Shown: positions 1 through 31,375 of the stretch, in pieces | Layout: each line of letters opens with the position of its first letter | How positions within the stretch are numbered: the first letter of the stretch is position 1 | Source: Plasmodiophora brassicae | Lineage: Eukaryota; Endomyxa; Phytomyxea; Plasmodiophorida; Plasmodiophoridae | Length of the DNA: 64,000 bases | Assembly (NCBI GenBank): GCA_039704465.1 | Contig: JASFAU010000020.1 | Span: 248,001-312,000, forward strand | Direction: 5' to 3' | Made by a program: the position numbers and the translations under genes | Notes under the pieces: model-generated | Databases searched by the model: none | The model's input: the letters and a program-made list of their open reading frames with translations, nothing else | What the model was told of the DNA's origin: nothing

Positions 1-1942
1 ATTGAACGTATCGACCAGGTCTTGGGCGCGGCGGCCGAGCGCCTCGAATAGGCCACGATCCACGATGTTCAGTGTCGCGCACGACCATGCCAAATTGGCC
101 ACATCGGACGCGATGAACGACTCGATCTCCATGATGGCACGCGCGCACAGCGCCGCCGTTAGTTGCGGGTTGCTGATCTCCAGTTTCGCCAACGACCAGG
201 TCAAATTGCTGATTTCCTGGGCGTTGAATCTGTCCGTCATCCCAGCAGCATGACGGCCCAGCTTGTCGAACAGCACGCGGTCTAGAACCCCCAACTTGGC
301 GAACGCCCACGACAGGTTGCCGATCGTCTGGGAGCTGAACCCGGTCGTCAGGCCGCTCGCGCGCCTGCTGATACATCCCATCAGTTCGGCGTGGAGAACC
401 CCCGCCTTTGCAAATGCCCATGCAACGTTGGCAAGACACTGAGCATTGAAATTGCCCATCGTTTCAATAGCTCGTTGGCCAAGCGCCTTGAAAGCACCGG
501 TGTCGACGGCGTCCGACTTGGCAAGTGCCCATGAAACCATGGATACCTCCGGGGCGTCGAAGCTGTCGATCGATGCAAGTACAGATTCCGGCAAGGCGTC
601 GAACAGGGCCGGATGTTTATATCCCAATGCAGCGCACGCCCACGCGATGTTGGAGATGTCGTGGGGCGACAGCTTCGTCGGGTGGGCGATGACCTGCGCT
701 GCAGCCGCATCGAGAATCGCAGCATCGGCGATCCGGACCGTTGCAAACGCCCAGGCCATGACGGCGGCCTGTTTCGGTTCCAGGCATTCGACCAGCTCCT
801 GCGTGCGCCTGGCAATCGCATCGAACAATTCCAGATCTTTGTGACCCAATTTGGCGAACGCCCAGGTGAGCCGCGATATGTTCACAGGATTGAATGACTC
901 CATGATAGCAGTGGCACGACCACTCATGGCCATGAGCAGAGCGTCATGTTTCAGGCCCATCGTGGCAAAGGCGGACGCAGCGGTTGCCAAGTCACGTGGA
1001 AGGTACCTGTTAATGTCCAGGACAATCCTGTTCGCGATGGCGCTGAACAGGTCATCGTTCGGGATGCCCAGCGTGGCAAATGCCAGGATCAATTGCGACG
1101 CGTTCAATGGCCCGATGGCGTCGAGTTCAGCGATCGACCGGCGTGCAATAATGGAAAACAGGGTCTCATCGCGAATGCCCAGTTTCGAACACGCGTTGGC
1201 CGTTATGCACAGCGACGCGGCATCGAACAGATGCGGGTACGATGTTATGCGGCGAATAACGGCCTCGTTCAGGTGGGCATCCGCGAAACCGATTCGGGCA
1301 GCTGCCCAGAGCAGAACGACCAGGTCCCGGTTGTCGATCCGCGAATCAGGAGCGATGGTTCGCGGAATAACGCTCCGGAAGAAACCGTGATCGAGGACGT
1401 CCAGTTTGGCGAGCGCGTTCACCAGTGTCGCGAGGTCCCAACCGCCCAGCATATGAAGGCCCTGACATACCCTGGCTTTGATGTCTCGCATGTAGCACAG
1501 CGCATCATTCCGGTCTGGCCGTGGTTGAGACGCACTGGATCGACATGACTCGTAGACGTGTGGGCGTACCGATGAATCCCTTGGACGTCAATTCTGCGAG
1601 GCGCTTCGACATGTGCGACAGCGTCCGGAGATGGAACCCGTTCGCACGGCTGATCAGATCCGGGAGGCACGACGTGATATTGGCGAGCTCGCGCTGCCGG
1701 TCGGGCGGCAGCTGCACGCCCGCGCTGGCGCTCCTGGCGACCTGGATCAGCAGCTTGTTGCAGATGCCCAGCGTGTACTGGTCCGGCGGGATGGCGTTGA
1801 TGCTGACCGTCGACAGCCGCCGGCGCCGCCACCGCGACGTCACCCTCCCCAACAACATCACCCCAAAATGATTATGGCCGCCTCGCTGCAGCAGCGACGA
1901 CACGATGCAGCCGACTGGGGGAACTGCACGACCCGCCGACAT
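1..1942 (-). CDS. Organellar RNA-binding-type helical repeat protein (OPR/HPR/FAST-like), 3' end outside the window
   Basis: The reverse strand from about 1450 down to base 1 reads as a long run of 35-40-residue helical repeats with cores such as NVAWAFAKAGV, NLSWAFAKLGV, NIAWACAALGY and NLTWSLAKLEI; I count about ten. Such repeats occur in OPR/HPR and FASTK-like proteins that bind mitochondrial or plastid RNA and often end in a RAP domain, which would lie beyond the left edge. The first exon starts near 1942 (an in-frame ATG at 1999 is the alternative). It is rich in Arg, Ser and Val and poor in acidic residues, which suits a mitochondrial presequence. At least one intron lies between about 1440 and 1560; its exact ends are unresolved. 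The organellar role is inferred. Confidence 0.75.
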
Positions 1943-2204
1943 CGAAAGTCGCACCTGGAGATCCGCATTTTTTGTCGACTGCGAAGTCGTCGAGGACAAG
2001 TGGATACGGTGGCCTAATTCTGGGCGCGTCTTGATGCGCGGACACCAGAATATTAACCGACTACCAACTCGAACGCCATGGGCGTGTCAAACATCCCCAA
2101 CGGACGTGTGAGCATGGGCGAATGAAGCATAATTGCAGGGACGTCGTTTGCTGTCCACAGGCTTATTGTGAACGGCGTTCATGCATCTGGGTTGCCATCA
2201 TGGC

Positions 2205-2364
2205 CCAGCTCATCTCGGTTCCCAGCAACGCGTACAATCCGATCGGTACCGCTGCTGTCATGAGCGTATTCGCTCTGGGCCACATATATATGCCTGCATT
2301 GCCGACACGTTCAAGGTTTCGAAACACGAGCGCACCCGCCCCGGCCTTTCCTTCTTTCAAGTGA
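2205..2364 (+). pseudogene. Decayed copy of the 3' end of the membrane-protein gene at 2593-3651
   Basis: The frame reads LISVPSNAYN...VMSVFALGHI, matching FVSVPGYTNS...FMSAFGLGHV near the C-terminus of the next gene (about 3485-3600). DNA similarity continues over the stretch ending in GCCTGCATTGCCGACA. No matching 5' part was seen, so this looks like a truncated tandem duplicate. The short frame around it is not expected to be a working gene. Confidence 0.55.
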
Positions 2365-2592
2365 ACAATGCCCAACGGTGCGCCGTTGCCGTCTTCCTGG
2401 TCAGCCTGCACTGGAGGACTATAATGTGCACCGTCCAGAACCAATGTACGTGCCTCCATACCATGCGTACCAATACACGCTCGCCTGCAAGAATAATCTC
2501 CGAGGAACACGCCGCGCTGGCTCCGTCAGTCCGTGGAGGACTGCTGCCGAATTGCATCTATCTGGTACTCGCTGTCTTCGGCCACTGCAGCG

Positions 2593-3651
2593 ATGCTGAG
2601 GCTTCTGACTGTCGTTGCCGCGGCACTGCTGATGATGGCTCGCACCCACGCCATGATAAATCCCAATGCACTGGCGACGTCGACGTCGAGGGCGACCCAT
2701 GCTGCCGTTGACATCGAAGCCGGCGGCGTCGATGATAACCGCAGTACGCCTCGTGCCGGCATGAACAGTGCCTCGGAACGGTCCTATATCAACACGTTGC
2801 GCGAAACCTTACTGGACAGCAGCAGGCCTGTGAATCCGATGGCGGCACTCATGCGCCGCAACCCGGAGGAATTCTGGAACGAAACTGACGTCCTAGACAG
2901 ATTTGGTCGCGGTACCCCTACTGACGTGGTTAACGGTTGCACCGGCGCCCTGTTGCAAGTGTCCGTCTACGAATTCCAAGCCAACTCGTTTCTTGCTGTT
3001 TGCGGCTACGTGATCACGGCTCTTGTGCTCCCGCTTCTCCTGTCCGCGAATCTGGTCCATTACGCCAACGACGAACGCAAAAGCCCACTTGATCGCGCGA
3101 TACTCCCGGTTGTGGCTGCGGTTGTTCTTATTTGGTTGACAAGGTTCGGGATACAAGTCGGAACGGCCTTTGCGGCAATGTCTCAGTTCGCGCGTCAACG
3201 TCGTCGCCTCCTTACATCAGCGCCCAAGGTCACCAGCTGCTTGTTAAGGGTTGCGCCATTCGTCCTAACCGCTGGAACGACAAGCGCCATCGCCGGCCAG
3301 GACATTGCCGTCGGTGCGAAGTTCGGAACACTCTATGGCACCGCGATGTTGGCTCCTCATCTGTGGGACACGCTCTGTGTGCCGAGGGATGTTCAAGGCA
3401 GGCCGTTGCCGCGACGCCGCTGGTGGCTAAATCCATCGTTCTGGGCCGATACGTTCATGGGTTCGGCGTTTATCTGGAGTACGATACTGGCCATGTTCGT
3501 ATCGGTTCCCGGGTACACAAACAGCGTCCTCGCCACGGCCGCATTCATGAGTGCATTCGGCCTAGGCCATGTGGCCTGCATTGCCGACAAGTTCCCGTTC
3601 CCCGATGCCGGACCTGACCCGGCCGGCCCAGCTAATCCCCCTTCCAACTGA
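2593..3651 (+). CDS. Unknown multi-pass membrane protein with signal peptide
   Basis: Uninterrupted frame of 352 codons. I chose the ATG at 2593 because it opens a signal-like stretch (MLRLLTVVAAALLMMART) and drops 20 polar residues of the longer frame. Hydrophobic segments follow near residues 135-160 (SFLAVCGYVITALVLPLLL), 170-190 (ILPVVAAVVLIWL), 225-240 and two more in the C-terminal third (FIWSTILAMFVSVP; VLATAAFMSAFGLGHVACI). The tail is Pro-rich. I recognise no family. A partial decayed copy of its C-terminus lies just upstream, so the gene may belong to a lineage-specific family. No intron is needed. Confidence 0.65.
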   Translation: MLRLLTVVAAALLMMARTHAMINPNALATSTSRATHAAVDIEAGGVDDNRSTPRAGMNSASERSYINTLRETLLDSSRPVNPMAALMRRNPEEFWNETDVLDRFGRGTPTDVVNGCTGALLQVSVYEFQANSFLAVCGYVITALVLPLLLSANLVHYANDERKSPLDRAILPVVAAVVLIWLTRFGIQVGTAFAAMSQFARQRRRLLTSAPKVTSCLLRVAPFVLTAGTTSAIAGQDIAVGAKFGTLYGTAMLAPHLWDTLCVPRDVQGRPLPRRRWWLNPSFWADTFMGSAFIWSTILAMFVSVPGYTNSVLATAAFMSAFGLGHVACIADKFPFPDAGPDPAGPANPPSN

Positions 3652-3808
3652 CGTCCCAACCGTCCAGCACAGTTCCCTGTTTTCGATAAACGTTCAAATT
3701 GCGTCTCGACGAACGTTCGCCTGCGACCTGAGACATGTGACGCCGGTGTTTTACTGTTTCCCATTTCCCGGTGAACGCCCCTCCCATGCCTCACGAAGCA
3801 CACTCCTC

Positions 3809-4550
3809 CTATTGGTCTAGGAACTTCACGCCGGTTTCATCGGAGGTTTCGGCTGGGATGATGGAGGCCTGTCCCTTGTCAGCCAGTAGTCGGACGGCGG
3901 CGACCAGGACCTGATCGTTGGCCCCATGGAACGCTGTCCACAGCGTATGTCAGAAGACTGTAAAACGACGACGGTGCCCCGCGGTCGCGCGTACGCTGCC
4001 CCATGGTGGAGTCGCCGCTGTGCAACTCAAAGATCGTGCAGATCTCGTTCATGTGCTGCGTGTCCTTCGCCCATTGGTAGATCAGCTGGGATAGCTCCTG
4101 GACGGTCCTATCGGACACGACGATGGCGGTCTGCGACGTATCCCGCCAGATCCCGTATCCTCTCGACACGACCTCGTCGAGTACGGCCCGGACCCCTTCC
4201 GGCGACAGTTTCCCTACGCCACGAAATCAGCGCCCTGATCGCGGTACCGCACCGATGAACCGCGTTACGATTGATGGCGGGATTATGGAATACGTTCGCG
4301 GTCGTCGAACCCTGCGGCTCGTGCACGTACAGGACGTTCTGCTTGTGCGCGCGGACATGGTCGACGACGAGGTCGACCCACATCGCCACTACGGAGGCGA
4401 CACGTGAGCATCGGCGACCCAGGGCGCGCCCGTCCGCGTCAAGTACCGACGCTGCTTCTGCCGGGTCGCCAGCACCGGCTGCAGCGTGAAGAACGGCGGC
4501 AGCGCCCACATGCGGCGGACGTTCGCGCCAGCGTCCCCATCGACCGCCAT
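3809..4550 (-). CDS. VPS25: VPS25, ESCRT-II complex subunit
   Basis: Four exons (4451-4550, 4269-4388, 3995-4213, 3809-3933) join in phase to 187 residues, close to the usual 175-190. The N-terminal winged helix has PPFFTLQPVLATRQKQ followed by LAMWVDLVV, matching the family's PPFFTLQP..TRQKQLA..C motif. The second winged helix shows RKLSPEGVRAVLDEV, LIYQWAKD and the C-terminal block FHGANDQVL ending GVKFLDQ. VPS25 links ESCRT-II to ESCRT-III (VPS20) during cargo sorting on endosomes. Two donors are GTCGGT and GTAACG, weaker than most in this window. The ATG is the only one giving a family-length N-terminus. No operon-like context. Confidence 0.92.
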
Positions 4551-4659
4551 GGCCTGCAGCCTGCTGCCACGAATAGGGCCGAACTGCGACCCGCCCGAAC
4601 TGATCCGCCCACCGTCGCGCTGTTCTTCAGGCGTGTGCCGTGTGGGTACTTATTATTGG

Positions 4660-4900
4660 GTATATGCCACACACTGACCTGTCGAGTGTACACCGAAAGC
4701 GCATGGGGCCTAGCGCAAGTCTCAGAAGCGTTGCCCGTGCATGGCGTGCCGCAGTTGCCGGAGGTCGTGGCCGCCCCGCCAGCTAGCAGAGTATTCCGTG
4801 CCGAAATACGTTTAACCGACACAGGCCAGATCGCATGTACGTCGCTGCTGCGTTCGAGGTCGACGCCGCCGGTGCGGTCACCTTGAGCATTCGCGACCCG
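4660..4900 (-). pseudogene. WSC-domain remnant
   Basis: On the reverse strand one frame reads YFGTEYSASW and the adjacent frame reads GNCGTPCTGNASETC, together covering the two halves of a WSC domain. They are one base out of frame with each other, a stop precedes the first half and the central CWCG is lost. No intron of normal size fits between them. It resembles the intact WSC exon at about 5300-5500, so it is probably a decayed duplicate of that gene. Confidence 0.5.
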
Positions 4901-5148
4901 TCGCCGCCAACAAGCCGACCAGCGCCAGACCTCGCTGACAAATGATATGACGGTCATCGTCCTGCGCTGCATTGCTGACGCGCCGTCGGTGTGTCGATTC
5001 AAGCGGATGCCGCCACAGAGCGGGGAGCACCTCTGCTACCCTGTAACAACGCGCCGATGCCTGCAGCGTCGTCGGCTCGAAGGAAATCCCTCTACTCGAG
5101 AAGAACTTGGTGGACACGATTGTATTCTGCAAGAATGACCAACGGATT

Positions 5149-6234
5149 TCAAACGAACGAGCCCAAGACGATGGACACGAAGAAAGCGACGGCGGTGTAG
5201 GCCGGCACGAGTGGAGCCACTGGAGGGATGGCGCCAGCAATGCCAGCGACAAGTTCGACGTGCGGACGAAGGGGGAGATGGCGTTCGATTCGGTCTCCCG
5301 CAAATCGCGCCCGGGTTACCAGCGCACGGCGCCATCGTCTGAGTCGACGTCTGCAGGGACTTCTGAAGGTTGGTTCCGCACCAGCAATTGTACCCGTACT
5401 CGGTGCCGAAGTAGTCGCAGAACGCCCTGCAGATGTGTACATGAACGACGCCGCATTCGACGTCGCCGCCGCTTGCGCCAGCGTGGTTGTCGTTCCCGCG
5501 ATGCCTGCAATAGTTTACGCGTCTGATGTACCACGACTGCCGCCGACGGCCGGCGACAGGACGATCCGATCGCCGATTATCCATCCCATCACGATGACAT
5601 CGGGCATGACTTCGATGGTTGTCGCGCCAACGGCGGGAGCGGCGAGCAGCGTCCATGATCTTGTCAGGGGTGTTCCCGTGATCGAGGTCGACCCTGAGTA
5701 CTCGCCCAGAAACCTCTCAACGGCCTCGCCTTCGAACGTGTACGACATCGCGTTCGCCTTGATGTAAACGTACGTGCGCCCTTGCGTTTGTGACCGCCAG
5801 GTCGAAAGTGCCACCGGCAAAGACGATGACGTACCCAGCGCACAGCCACTGGTCCTGTTGTGTTTGTGTCGCATCGGTCCTCTGTACGGTCCCATACACG
5901 AGCAAGCCGGCGACGTTCAGGTTGTCGTCCATGACCAGGGTCGAATCGGCGCCAATGATATAGTATTGTGATTGCAGGCAGCAACGCGCCTGGTCGTGAA
6001 CGGCCTCCCAGAAAGGGTGACGGCCGGCAGTGACGATGATACCTGGCATTGGCTCCGGAACTGGGGTCGAAGTTTGGTCGGCAATTGAGCCGCGTACGAA
6101 GTGTTGATGAGGCGCGGGAAGTCGTTCAAGAAACGGACGATGTCGGCCTGGCCGTATCCGGCATACTGGTCATCCACTATCGTCACGAGTGCAGGAATAC
6201 TCCAGCACAAAGCCCAGCGCATGCGACCGACCAC
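5149..6234 (-). CDS. G8-WSC single-pass surface protein (probable)
   Basis: On the reverse strand a G8-like block (YYIIGADSTLVMDDNLNVAG, LLVYGTVQ, AGGTFDLAVTN) leads into SITGTPLTRSW and VIVMGWIIGDRIVL, the end of a G8 domain. A WSC domain follows, with ICRAFCDYFGTEYGYNCWCG and CAGNPGAICGRPNR. The protein ends in a hydrophobic C-terminus (AYTAVAFFVSIVLGSFV) and a stop at 5149. The segments lie in different frames, but introns of about 78, 30 and 40 bp would join them in phase. G8 and WSC domains occur in extracellular proteins, and WSC is linked to glycan binding. The N-terminal exon at 6234 has a weak signal-like segment. Exon ends are only partly certain, and a decaying gene cannot be excluded because WSC relics lie beside it. 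Confidence 0.6.
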
Positions 6235-25333: not shown

Positions 25334-27724
25334 ATGGCGGTGGAGGTCAATGGCGAGGTGCGTCGATGGAATCATCGTTGCGGCCAGCAGCTGACTGACT
25401 GCGCGCGAACGTGGTCGCCAGACGCTCGTCAAGCAATGGAACTATTGGCTGATCCTGCTCAGCTATGCGCTGTCGGTCTTCGGGTCGTTCACCGCGTTCC
25501 TCATGGTGGAGCAGGCCAAGATCTCGCTGTACAAACGGAAGAACCCGTTGTTCTGGGTCGTTTGGGCCGCGGTCGCCCTGGGCGGGTGCGGCATTTTCGC
25601 GAGTAAGCATTGGAACGCCTGCGCTGGTACGTCTGCTAGCCGTTGACAATGCCGGCAGTGCACTTCATTGGAATGACCGCGCTGTCCCTGGTGTCACCGG
25701 ACGGTAAACCCTTCCCCTTCACATTCTCGCCCGGCCATGTCGTCATTAGGTGGGTCCTTCAACTACGCATTGCTGTCTGTTTGTTGACGAGCGGGCACGA
25801 CCAGCGTTGTGGCACCGATCGTCCTCGAGGTTCTTGCGCTCCTCATTGTCATGCGCGGGTACCACCATCGGCACATCGCCCGGGGCGAGGCGGCACCCTC
25901 CCCCGCTCAACAGCTTACAACGGGGTACACCGGCGCGCGTCCACTCACATTGCCATCTCTCATACGCGGTGCCATGCCCAGGTACACTGGCGTTCGCCGA
26001 ACCATGATGCATGTAGGGGCGGGTATGCGGGCCTTGGAACGGCGTCCTGACTTCGACTGGCTCTCTAGGCGATGAAGGACCTGAAACGCATGGAGCTGCC
26101 GAAGAAGTTGTACAAGGAAACGGACTGGTACGTGCTGTTGTAGAACGTGACTGATGTCACGTTCACAGCGCTCGCAGGTACCTGCTGGGCGCCGCACTGA
26201 TGAGCGGGACCGGGGTCGGCGTTATGCATTACACGGGCCTGATGGCGGTCACCTTCCAGGGGCACATCCAGTGCGGATAATGCAGGCCCCATTGCTGGTG
26301 TCGTCGTCAGTACTCACACTGCGTCGTGTCAGGTTCGACCCCTGGGTGGTGTCCGCGTCCATGCTGATCGCGATCATCGCAAGCGCGGCCGCATTCCTCC
26401 TGCTGTTCGTCATCCAGATGCCCATGCTCCAGATCGTGTCTGCAGCCGTCATGGGCATCGCCGTCTGCGGCGCTCATTACACGTAAGCCGGTGCACTGGA
26501 CAATGGGCAACCGCCCACTGAACCTGAACACCCGCAGGGGAATGCAACACGTGTTCGTGTACGATGCAGCCGCGTCGGCGCCGGCCGCCGATGCCCTGAA
26601 TAAGGACAGCGTTGGGCTGATCGTCGCCTGGGCCGGTATCATCACCTGCTTTCTGCTCGAGGTGCACGGAGGCGGACGTCGATGGCTGGCATGCGCCGAA
26701 TATGAACGACAGGGATGTCTACGTAGGCGTTTGGCGCATCGCAGCTGAAATCGGCCAAACTCCACCTGGATCGCGTCGTGGCACAGACCCAGAACGAGCT
26801 GACGCAGACCATCGTCGAACTCGTCGAGACGCGACGGGACCTTGACACGGCTAAAGTGTGGCACGCACGCTCAGCGACTCGCGCCATCGGCTCTGATCGA
26901 CGTCCCACAGCGAATGCTGACCATGATCAACGTGCTGCGTCCTTTACACTCATCAGACAAGTCGGAGCCGCACCTGCTGTTTGTGAAGGAACACTGACTG
27001 TGGGCTTTCAGGAAGAAGACAGCGTCTAGCACGTTTGCGACGTGTGCGTTAAAATCAATGGGCCTGTCGTATGCAGACGATAAGGTGCCGTCAGCAGGTC
27101 AGACGTGTCGCGGGAATTCCCACATTGGTGGGTGACCTTTCGCTGCAGGCGTTGGAGATGCCAGCGAATCACTGCACAAAGTTCTAGCACATCCGGTGGC
27201 GGTCGAGCTCCTAAAGGTGCATGCGGTTGGAACACTGCGTTGCACAGTGGACCTGAATGCAGGCGCACCAGGATCAGCAAGTGCAAGGCTTCCGCCAGGA
27301 GGGCGTCATGTTCCTGCTGGCCGTCAACCTACTGACCTCGACCAAGCCTCGGGACCAGAAGATGACCAAGTCGCTAACGTCGAAGATCATGCAGGAGTTC
27401 ATCGTCGAGGGCGCCCCGCACGAGATCAACATCTCCATGAGCCAGCGCATCCGCCTCCAGGAACGCAGCAAGAAGCCGTCAGTGCGCATGTTCGCCGAGG
27501 CGTACGACGAAGTCCTGCGCCTAATCATCCACAACGACTACGCCGGGTTCTGCGACTCCGACCAGGGCAGATTCGCGCTCTGGCTCTGCGACAACGTCAA
27601 CTTCGGCGCGCACCACGAAGAGCAACAACCTCCGCCCGTATCCGACACCGACAGCATATCAAGCCTCGAAGAGCTGGCAGGGACGGCCTCCCACAAGATG
27701 GACGTCCTCGGCATGACAATGTAA
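25334..27724 (+). CDS. MHYT-domain 7-helix membrane sensor fused to an RGS domain
   Basis: Exon 1 (25334-25357, MAVEVNGE), exon 2 (25422-25602), exon 3 (25659-25749) and exon 4 (from 25805) fit in phase; later exons run to the stop at 27724. Three MHYT motifs are seen: MHFIGM (across the exon 2/3 junction), VMHYTGL (about 26224) and AHYTGM (across an intron at about 26485). Each closes a hydrophobic helix, and a seventh helix is GLIVAWAGIITCFLL. In bacteria MHYT domains are thought to bind metal and sense O2, CO or NO. A coiled coil follows (LDRVVAQTQNELTQTIVEL). The C-terminus is an RGS domain: SLHKVLAHPVAVELLK, GVMFLLAVNLL, APHEINISMSQRI, SVRMFAEAYDEVLRLI. RGS domains speed GTP hydrolysis by G-alpha. 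Exons between 25910-26080 and 26990-27150 are unresolved. Confidence 0.85.
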
Positions 27725-27867
27725 ACGATCAGGGTTATTGCTGCGTTCTCCGCGAAGGGGCTTCGAGAATGGTTGTGCATCCCGTCCCGTGGCTTCGCGC
27801 AGTCGCGCACTCGCAATAATGCGTCAGTGGCTTCGAAGTGTAGTGCATTCCAGGAGCGGTCGGGCTT

Positions 27868-29260
27868 TCAGCGCTTGCGAGCCAGGACGAAGTAGGAAGG
27901 CGTGAAGATCTGCATCTTGCCACCGTCGACGAGGTCGTCGGCGGTCGAGTTTAGGAACGCGGCCACACGCGACGAGCCGCTCGGGGCAATGCCGAGCGAC
28001 TCCAGCGCGGTGACGAAGACCTTCGTGCACCAGCGGCCGACACGCGTCATGCGGAACCCCTTCAGCGTCATCTTACCGTTCAGGCCGTCGAACCACGGGA
28101 CCTGGTTGCTGGCGAATTGCTTGCTATTGGCGTCGAAGCTCTCGACGATGTCGAACCCGGCCTCGTTCAGGCAGTCGAACACGTACTTGATGTCGGTCAG
28201 CGTCGGAATTCCATTACCGGCCTCGATACCCTCCTTGATGCGAACCTGGTTCGTGTCCGTCTTGTCGAACCCGTCCAGCATGACCCATTCGTACAGAGCG
28301 AACAGGCCACCCGGCTTGAGGATCGCGTTCACATTCTTGAATGTAACCTTGACTGCAACGTTAGCAAAGGATGAGGATGGTTGATAAACGGTCAAGTACG
28401 CGGCGATCAGGCGAGTGGACAGTGCTTTCAATGGCGAAGGCCGCGTCGAACGTGTTCGCTGGGAACTGCTCAGCCAGCTTCTGGAAGTCGCCTTGGACGA
28501 GACGGCACTTGTCGGCGAGGCCAAGCGCCTTGTTGTACTTGTTACCGATGTTGACCTGGTACTGGGAGATCGTGACACCCGTGATGTCAGCGCCGCAGAA
28601 CTCATGCATGTGCCGCATGGGGCCGCCGATCCCGCACCCGACGTCGACCGCCTTCGACGTCGGCGTCAGGCCCAGCCGATACGCCATGTAGTGCTCGCTG
28701 CGGCGGATTGACTCCTCGAACGTTTCCGTTGCGAAACGTGGCGCGAAGTGGAACGACTGCCCCCAGCCCCACTCATCTGTCATGCACGCGTCAGCAACGG
28801 CCATTCGAAACAGGAGATGCGCATACAGAAATCAGTGACCAGGTTGTCTGCGCCAAGACGTCAGCAGGACACGTGAGAGGGGAGAGCACGCGGAACCCAC
28901 AGAACGCTTGGACCATCGTGTCGTACTCGGCTTTACGCGTGTCGATGCTATCCTCGTTCGAAATCTACAGTCAGGCCACACTTAGGCTCTTTGCAGGGAC
29001 AAAGCCTTTGGGAATCGACTTGCCTTTCCGGTGCGAGCGCCCTCGAACAAGTCCTCGTACTTGTCAACGGATGAGGTGACGCCTTTGCTGTCGATGACCA
29101 TGTCCTTCGAGGACAACAGCGATGCGCCGGTCGTCGAGGCGCCGAACCGCCCCCAGGACGGTTTCGTGCGGCGGATCATCCAGAGGGCCACGAGGATCAG
29201 GACGGCGCCGGTCGCCGTCGACCAGTGGGCCACAGAGGGGACGATATCGGCCAACATCAT
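27868..29260 (-). CDS. Sterol 24-C-methyltransferase, copy 1
   Basis: Five exons (29024-29260, 28901-28964, 28827-28847, 28400-28776, 27868-28347) join in phase to 392 residues. The N-terminus has one transmembrane helix (GAVLILVALWMI) as in plant SMTs, an ER anchor. Family motifs are sterol-binding region I YEWGWGQSFHF, SAM motif VDVGCGIGGPMRHM, GVTISQYQ, and C-terminal KPGGLFALYEWVM. It transfers methyl from SAM to the sterol side chain (C-24) in ergosterol/phytosterol synthesis. Odd points: exon 3 is a 21-nt micro-exon encoding NLVTDFY residues, intron 1 has a GC donor (GCAAGT), and the last acceptor reads TCAAG. An apparent in-frame ATG at 28804 lies inside intron 3 and is not the start. 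Confidence 0.95.
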
Positions 29261-29370
29261 GCCAACGTTCGATAGCGAGTGTGACGCTGGCGCCGGGCCG
29301 CGAACTCGGGAGAAGCGCCTTTGGCGACGGGCACGACACGCGCCGGGGAACCCGATTTAGCGCCCATCCC

Positions 29371-29759
29371 GTGCCCTCGACGAAGCCGCTGGACCAGAAC
29401 ACGATAAGGCCGCCCTAATCATGCTGGAGTTCATCGTCGAAAATGACCCACCGAGATAAACGTCTCCACGAGCCAGCGCATCCGCCTGCTGGAACGCAAC
29501 ATGAGGTCGTCACTGCGCATGTTCGCCGAGGCGTACGACGAAGTCCTGCGCCTAGGTAATCATCCACAACGACTACGCCGGGTTCTGCGACTCCGACCAG
29601 GGCAGATTCGCGCTCTGGCCGTGCGGCGACGTCAGCTTCGGCGCGCACCACGAAGAGCAACAACCTCCGCCCGTATCCGACACCGACAGCATATCAAGCC
29701 TCGAAGCGCTGGCAGGGACGGCTTCCCACAAGATGGGCGTCCTCGGCATTCCAATGTAA
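29371..29759 (+). pseudogene. RGS-domain 3' fragment of the MHYT-RGS gene
   Basis: Matches 27332-27724 of the intact gene, including RMFAEAYDEVLRL and the Ser/Asp-rich tail (SDTDSISSLEAL). It is broken by an in-frame stop just after the gene fragment starts, by the shift at ACCCACCGAGATAAACG where the intact gene reads APHEINIS, and by two extra bases at CGCCTAGGTAATC. No MHYT or 5' RGS part accompanies it. It arose as the left edge of the tandem duplication. Confidence 0.9.
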
Positions 29760-29903
29760 GCGATCAGGGTTGTTTGCAGCGTTCTCCGCGAAGGGGCTTC
29801 GAGAATGGTTGTGCATCCCGTCCCGTGGCTTCGTGCAGTCGCGCACTCGCAATAATGCGTCAGTGGCTTCGAAGTGTAGTGCATTCCAGGAGCGGTCGGG
29901 GTT

Positions 29904-31290
29904 TCAGCGCTTGCGAGCCAGGATGAAGTAGTTGGGCGTGAAGATCTGCATATTGCCACCGTCGATGAGGTCATCGGCGGACGAATTCAGAAACGCGGCG
30001 ACACGCGACGAGCCGCTCGGAGCAATGCCGAGCGACTCCAGGGCGGTGACGAAGACCTTCGTGCACCAGCGGCCGACACGCGTCATGCGGAACCCCTTCA
30101 GCGTCATCTTACCGTTCAGGCCGTCGAACCACGGGATCTGGTTACTGTCGAATAGCTTGCTATTGGCGTCGAAGCTCTCGACGACATCGAACCCGGCCTC
30201 GTCCAGGCAGTCGAACACGTGCTTGATGTCGGTCAGCGTTGGGATCCCATTGCCAGCCTCGATACCCTCCTTGATGCGAACCTGGTTCGCATCCGCCTTG
30301 TCGAACCGGTCCAGAATGACCCATTCGTACAGAGCGAACAGGCCACCCGGCTTGAGGATCGCGTTCACATTCTTGAACGCAACCTTAACGGCAACGTTAG
30401 CAAAGGATGAGGATGGCTGATAAACGGTCACGTACGCGGCGATCAGGCGAGTGCACCGTGCTTTCAATGGCGAAGGCAGCGTCGAACGTGTTCGCTGGGA
30501 ACTGCTCAGCCAGTTTCTGGAAGTCGCCTTGGACGAGACGGCACTTGTCGGCGAGGCCAAGCGCCTTGTTGTACTTGTTGCCGATGTTGACCTGGTACTG
30601 GGAGATCGTGACACCCGTGATGTCAGCGCCGCAGAACTCATGCATGTGCCGCATGGGGCCGCCGATCCCGCACCCGACGTCGACCGCCTTCGACGTCGGT
30701 GTCAGGCCCAGCCGATACGCTATGTAGTGCTCGCTGCGGCGGATCGACTCCTCGAACGTTTCCGTTGCGAAACGCGGCGCGAAATGGAACGACTGCCCCC
30801 AGCCCCACTCGTCTACCATGCAAGCGTCAGCAACGGCCATTCGAAACATGAGATGTGCATACAGAAATCAGTGACCAGGTTGTCTGCGACAAGACGTCAG
30901 CGTACACGTGAGATGGGATAGCACGCGGAACCCACAGAACGCTTGGACCATCGTGTCGTACTCGGCTTTACGCGCGTCGATGCTGTCCTCGTTCGAAATC
31001 TACACTCACCGCCACATTTAGGCCCTTGACAAAGCCTTTGGAAATCATCGTACTTGTCCGGTGCGAGCGCCCTCGAACAAGTCCTCGTACTTGTCGACGG
31101 ATGAGGTGACGCCATTGCGGTCGATGACCATGTCCTTCGAGGACAACAGCGATGCGCCGGTCGTCGGGGCGCTGAATCGGCCCCAGGACGGTTTGGTGCG
31201 GCGGATCATCCAAAGGGCCACGAGGATCAGGACGGCGCCGGTCGCGATCGACCACTGGGCCGCCGTAGGGACGATATCGGCCAGCATCAT
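29904..31290 (-). CDS. Sterol 24-C-methyltransferase, copy 2
   Basis: Exons 31054-31290, 30936-30999, 30863-30883, 30436-30812 and 29904-30383 have exactly the same lengths as copy 1 and also give 392 residues. All SMT motifs are kept (YEWGWGQSFHF, VDVGCGIGGPMRHM, GVTISQYQVN). Differences from copy 1 are mostly silent or conservative, for example VTFKN to VAFKN and FDKTDTN to FDKADAN. The intron 1 donor is GT (GTACGA) where copy 1 has GC. Both copies look functional, so dose increase or two successive methylations (C-28 and C-29, as by plant SMT1/SMT2) are possible. The high similarity favours recent duplication. Confidence 0.95.
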
Positions 31291-31375
31291 TCCAACGTTC
31301 GACAGCGAGTTTGCCGTCGGCGGGGCACCCTGAACTCGAGGGGCACGACAGGCGCCGGGGATCCTGATTTAGCGC

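Follow-up and report, generated by a model that had tools for sequence, protein, structure and literature searches.

A 64,000-nucleotide stretch of DNA from Plasmodiophora brassicae, the clubroot agent, referred to here as the window, contains a plus-strand gene at positions 25334-27724 that joins an MHYT membrane module to an RGS domain, whose usual role is to turn G-proteins off; the fusion is confirmed at these coordinates, and the join looks real. An earlier note on this DNA had proposed both a single gene here and the order MHYT, linker, RGS, and both proposals held up, as the 14-exon frame joins into 555 amino acids from the ATG at 25334 to the TAA at 27724 without a stop, and the same order is found in a public P. 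brassicae protein, here called P0001. The fusion in one frame, the matches to both domain profiles, three motif histidines and, elsewhere in the genome, genes for G-alpha can all be read from the DNA itself. A membrane-bound RGS protein is of an already known kind; MHYT as the membrane part is new. We give a roughly even chance to the reading that this membrane protein belongs with the 7TM-RGS proteins and that a ligand at its metal-holding MHYT module would gate a brake on G-alpha, a prediction that comes from joining the brake gating discussed for 7TM-RGS proteins with the CO sensing of the bacterial MHYT protein CoxC.

The coding span (25334-27724, plus strand, with P0001 as its public homologue) is interrupted by 13 introns of 46-65 nt each, and the reading frame is continuous once they are removed. 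The introns were set manually, guided by GT and AG ends, by the reading frame and by the continuity of the domains, so that the GT-AG ends of the model are there by construction. For scale, the 2015 genome paper (PMC4471660) gives a mean of 4 introns per gene with a mean length of 60 bp, and a total of 9,730 genes, in whose prediction seven transcriptome libraries were used. In the spliced model, exon 1 (25334-25357) carries the start codon and an N-terminus predicted to lie outside, and exon 2 (25422-25602) encodes the first two transmembrane segments, TM1 and TM2. Exon 3 (25659-25749) carries the first MHYT motif (MHFIG), with intron 2 interrupting its Met codon at 25602/25659, and exon 4 (25805-25924) holds TM3 and the beginning of a long basic loop that continues through exon 5 (25982-26012) and ends with exon 6 (26069-26127), both of which encode portions of a cytoplasmic loop. 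TM4 and the second motif (MHYTG, 26224-26238) lie in exon 7 (26178-26270); exon 8 (26333-26482) contributes TM5, TM6 and the first part of the third motif (AHYTG, 26472-26482, resuming at 26538), and exon 9 (26538-26661) the rest of that motif and most of TM7, the second and third motifs being placed by Pfam as well as by the model. Exons 10 and 11 (26727-26960, with an intron at 26856-26910) complete TM7 and lead into a linker that reads as helical and coiled-coil-like by a crude heptad count, in which the best frame scored 8/13. Exon 12 (27012-27097) carries the linker from the coil to the RGS domain, with all residues but one matching P0001, and the RGS domain itself (27169-27562; PF00615, model residues 387-502) is encoded by exon 13 (27149-27216) and exon 14 (27263-27724), separated by intron 13 at 27217-27262. 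All of these features are on the plus strand.

P0001 is a 571-residue protein that NCBI names 'MHYT domain-containing protein [Plasmodiophora brassicae]' and whose record lists both PF00615 and PF03707. Of its 552 residues aligned with the window model, 548 are identical, and the four substitutions (V/I, A/T, F/Y and V/I) are mild; the window DNA apparently comes from another isolate than the source of P0001. The two agree in the residues of all exons save at two places: P0001 keeps intron 4 as coding sequence, which adds 19 amino acids relative to our model, and its last-exon acceptor lies 9 nt downstream of ours. Intron 4 (25925-25981, plus strand, 57 nt) is in frame and contains no stop, and since it is coding in P0001 and an intron in the window model, it is either an alternative intron or miscalled in one of the two. 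An in-frame intron of this sort could give rise to two protein forms. It lies within the cytoplasmic loop and is flanked by the near-repeats GGTACACCGGCG and GGTACACTGGCG.

The earlier note had proposed searching the spliced protein with the MHYT and RGS profiles of Pfam and had staked its reading on both matching. Both do: on the joined model PF03707 scores 92.4 bits (cut-off 21, E 1.6e-26) in two stretches and PF00615 scores 47.0 bits (cut-off 23.9, E 3.9e-12) over residues 387-502, covering profile positions 1-112 of 117, and P0001 gives nearly the same values (92.3 bits for MHYT, 47.9 for RGS). Taken unspliced, three exons match MHYT at 16.4, 24.6 and 22 bits, the first of these, exon 3, being below the cut-off, and the last exon matches RGS at 45.4 bits. 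Among the sequences of solved structures there were 26 distinct matches at E <= 1, nearly all of them named RGS, with RGS7 the best at E 1.2e-4.

Seven predicted membrane segments followed by a C-terminal RGS domain in a single chain is what the joined frame and P0001 both present, with one transmembrane segment set by its motif. To our knowledge most 7TM-RGS proteins have no known ligand. The same layout is described for AtRGS1 of Arabidopsis and for proteins of Naegleria fowleri in the accessible portion of PMC9283941, which counts 28 7TM-RGS proteins in N. fowleri and reports GAP activity measured for the RGS domains of some. That text discusses the plant and protist proteins as receptors that gate a brake on the G-alpha GTPase, some G-alpha being self-activating, and describes the response of the Naegleria proteins to outside cues as still to be determined. 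P. brassicae resembles these hosts in that its genome, too, is rich in matches to RGS and G-alpha. It differs in that the membrane part of its protein is MHYT, homologous to bacterial sensors; the 7TM region of AtRGS1 was not part of the comparison.

Both families were searched for in the genome (25,344,181 bases in 21 contigs). At E <= 0.01 the RGS profile matches it 85 times, twice with a score under the family cut-off; these are single-frame matches rather than genes. Sixty-five of these domains were examined, the remaining 20 being that of the MHYT-RGS gene and 19 others, most of them partial or of low score, and 23 of the 65 lie in frames with at least four membrane-like segments, a count by hydropathy only in which introns shorten some frames. 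Membrane-bound RGS proteins thus look common in P. brassicae. For a parasite whose genome is 25 Mb, 85 matches to RGS is a large number, and no paper on RGS richness in P. brassicae was found among the paper titles searched. By eye, some of the RGS frames resemble cyclic-nucleotide-binding proteins (L007, L008) or FHA proteins (L023). G-alpha, which the earlier note had presupposed as the partner, is indeed encoded: the best locus (L028) has the canonical RVRTTGI and DVGGQR, another (L030) has the near variants RSTGI and DVGGRR, and a third (L029) has stops inside the matched stretch that are perhaps introns. The search gave 91 exon-level matches, which is not a gene count, as many fall below the cut-off and some may be other GTPases; several contain stops within the matched stretch. 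There are ten matches to class III cyclase in the genome. Elsewhere among protists, PMC5784254 reports that Naegleria gruberi has 229 RGS genes and that Bigelowiella natans, which also belongs to Rhizaria, has more than 30 G-alpha subunits.

Whether the RGS half could act as a GAP was approached through the positions that we take to be its contacts with G-alpha, E87, N88, N128, D163 and R167 by RGS4 numbering, of which N128 is presumably the one most tied to GAP activity and catalysis. Positions were placed through RGS8 in the alignment and compared with the 65 other P. brassicae RGS domains. Glu is kept at E87, as in 59 of the 65 others, and Asn at N128, as in 58 of them. N88 is Gly in the MHYT-RGS protein, a residue seen once among those tallied for the other domains (N 32, S 18, T 4, G 1); W92 is Leu (others W 29, L 16); D163 is Asn (others D 21, N 19); and R167 is also Gly, where 55 of the 65 others have Arg and none has Gly. 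With E87 and N128 kept but N88 and R167 both changed to Gly, GAP activity is plausible and not assured. In a tree of 67 rows (the 65 other domains minus one too short, the MHYT-RGS domain, RGS7 and RGS8), the MHYT-RGS domain sits on a long branch of 2.96 changes per column and its placement is not resolved. The two glycine substitutions and the long branch speak for another reading, in which the RGS domain would be a non-catalytic or weak binder of G-alpha, a docking module, with MHYT serving mainly as a membrane anchor. We consider this somewhat unlikely, though it is the strongest of the competing explanations, as N128 and E87 are kept and the Asn found in place of D163 is shared with 19 of the 65 other RGS domains of the genome. 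A ligand-gated brake is the reading we prefer.

The earlier note had counted three MHYT motifs, and three sites do exist; the literal sequence MHYT stands only at the second, the three reading MHFIG, MHYTG and AHYTG (P0001 residues 69-73, 204-208 and 266-270). The histidines of all three (H70, H205 and H267 in P0001 numbering) are invariant in ten of ten aligned proteins. So is F71 of the first motif, and Phe in place of Tyr at that site is therefore usual within the aligned set. The first residue of the third motif is Ala in P0001, where eight of the nine others have Met and one has Val, so that two of the three motif methionines are kept. As to the seven-helix module that had been claimed, we infer seven membrane segments with the motifs at their outer ends and, by the positive-inside rule, a cytoplasmic RGS domain. 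Hydropathy places six segments above threshold, and TM4 was set by the motif it carries. Lys and Arg number 1 in the N-terminus, 4, 1, 13, 0, 0 and 0 in loops 1 to 6, with a further 11 over the 60 residues that follow TM7, all with segment borders set by hand and the count for loop 3 including the 19 residues of intron 4. This distribution favours an outside N-terminus, outer motifs and an RGS domain in the cytoplasm. Loop 5 is expected on the inner side, but with three residues and no Lys or Arg it is too short to tell; TM7 as drawn starts with Lys.

The closest functional model for this half is the CoxC type of bacterial MHYT-LytTR regulator, which, as given in PMC11347149, likewise couples the three motifs of a seven-helix MHYT module to a C-terminal output domain. 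That text describes CoxC as sensing CO in a copper-dependent manner with O2 acting in opposition, and O2 alone as not an effector. The P. brassicae protein differs from this type in that RGS takes the place of DNA binding as its output and its third motif lacks Met, the CoxC sequence itself being outside the comparison. Gas sensing by the MHYT-RGS protein would thus be carried over from CoxC by analogy, and oxygen sensing is the least supported form of it, since O2 alone is no effector there. Other bacterial proteins share the same sensor module, among them the MHYT histidine kinases (NF038348) and the MHYT-GGDEF-EAL proteins NbdA and MucR (PMC11347149, in its available text). The NF038348 profile matches P0001 in two stretches, the better at residues 189-356 and reaching into the linker, with 82.6 bits against a cut-off of 450, and P0001 is therefore not a member of that family. 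Among the 80 loci kept of 556 relatives in a scan of bacterial and archaeal genomes, many matches end at residue 337 and some later, up to residue 539; those running beyond 337 would extend past what counts as homologous. If G-alpha is regulated as proposed, the module might still respond not to a diatomic gas but to copper as such, to redox state or to a small organic compound, which we judge improbable, more so than a docking role for the RGS domain. The one direct case of gas sensing considered here, CoxC, itself needed copper, and with AHYTG as its third motif the site may differ; against this, all three histidines and two of the three methionines are kept, and the module aligns along its full length with bacterial MHYT proteins.

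Under the preferred reading, a ligand-gated brake, the three outer-side motifs would hold a metal, probably copper, through Met, His and Tyr, and the helices would shift when a small ligand binds or leaves. The helical linker would relay this shift to the cytoplasmic RGS domain, which would then bind active G-alpha better or worse and so alter how far it speeds GTP hydrolysis. The helices and their orientation, the metal, the ligand, the coupling and the GAP activity are all things that we infer. Counting against this explanation are the changes N88G and R167G, the third motif without Met, the long branches of both the RGS and the MHYT halves, and loop 5. That two adjacent genes, one for MHYT and one for RGS, were merged by gene prediction in both the window model and the public one is very improbable, for although short intergenic gaps do occur (the start of the upstream ribosomal protein gene, placed by eye, is about 240 nt away) and introns 11 and 12 begin at GTC donors, the same frame is found in the window and in P0001, which differ as isolates do, the modelled standalone MHYT genes likewise use GTC donors, and P0001, if it comes from the 2015 set (PMC4471660, in its accessible text), was predicted with the transcriptome libraries noted above.

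As to where the module came from, the MHYT profile gave 12 matches in the genome at E <= 10, three in the MHYT-RGS gene and nine clustered on contig 5 (L027, 228500-237000; about 1660-5500 within it), where three standalone MHYT genes lie in tandem. With the MHYT-RGS gene they make four MHYT genes found in the genome. Each of the three encodes 337 amino acids as modelled, with the same seven-helix module and three motifs; they differ from the MHYT-RGS gene in that no RGS domain was seen in them, and their modules are 25-27% identical to its own. Fungal signalling proteins also include a standalone MHYT protein, known here from its entry in PMC3576715 only. Of the 80 bacterial loci, 37 went into an MHYT tree of 50 rows, together with nine proteins from databases and the four of P. 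brassicae, with no fungal MHYT protein among them. The four P. brassicae modules form a group whose support is weak (64/93, and 63% of bootstrap trees), at a point where long branches meet, that of the MHYT-RGS protein having a length of 2.68. They share their half of the tree with 20 further rows, which are short proteins or frames (about 235-334 amino acids) and mostly standalone MHYT. This would fit a single ancestral MHYT module that gained the RGS domain later.

The earlier note knew of no described MHYT-RGS protein, and this still stands, none having been found in the literature searched, which took in few subscription papers and no supplements. P0001 was the only protein with both domains among 8000, 7998 and 2316 candidates scored from collections of uncertain eukaryote coverage, the first two sets being those with the most words in common with the query. 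With residues 1-400 as the query it was the sole protein at E <= 1e-3 among the 8000, and nine other matches among the 7998 are MHYT without RGS by their listed Pfam domains. A scan of viral contigs gave three stretches that fit a pattern, none of them a relative. In print, PMC3576715, the one paper found to contain both words, names MHYT and RGS as separate entries for Aspergillus proteins, and by term search the main text of two P. brassicae genome papers, one of them PMC4471660, contains neither RGS nor MHYT.

The gene is preceded by a citrate synthase gene and, on the opposite strand, by a ribosomal L44-family gene, and is followed by two genes for sterol methyltransferase that read on the minus strand. 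Its end is caught up in a roughly 2-kb tandem duplication, in which blocks between 27421-29297 and 29452-31327 are 89-95% alike without gaps, with a mean column identity of 93%. The alignment indicates that the two sterol methyltransferase genes arose by this duplication, which carried part of the last RGS exon with it. The second RGS piece (29452-29774, plus strand), outside the working gene, is a broken copy of the C-terminal exon; it contains indels and gave no Pfam match at E <= 0.01 in the two frames tested, and is therefore taken as a remnant.

The larger claim is that the MHYT-RGS protein may be a eukaryotic gas or copper receptor acting on heterotrimeric G-proteins without a GPCR or exchange factor, in which MHYT would directly gate the GTPase brake and the signal would be the lifetime of active G-alpha; we advance this tentatively, as the less probable side of the question. 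In one bacterium, a member of the MHYT family has been shown to have CO as its ligand and copper as its cofactor (PMC11347149). Because the sensor half belongs to that family, the idea of a receptor that gates a brake is here directly testable, and if it is true, a bacterial-type sensor module would have been wired into eukaryotic G-protein signalling.
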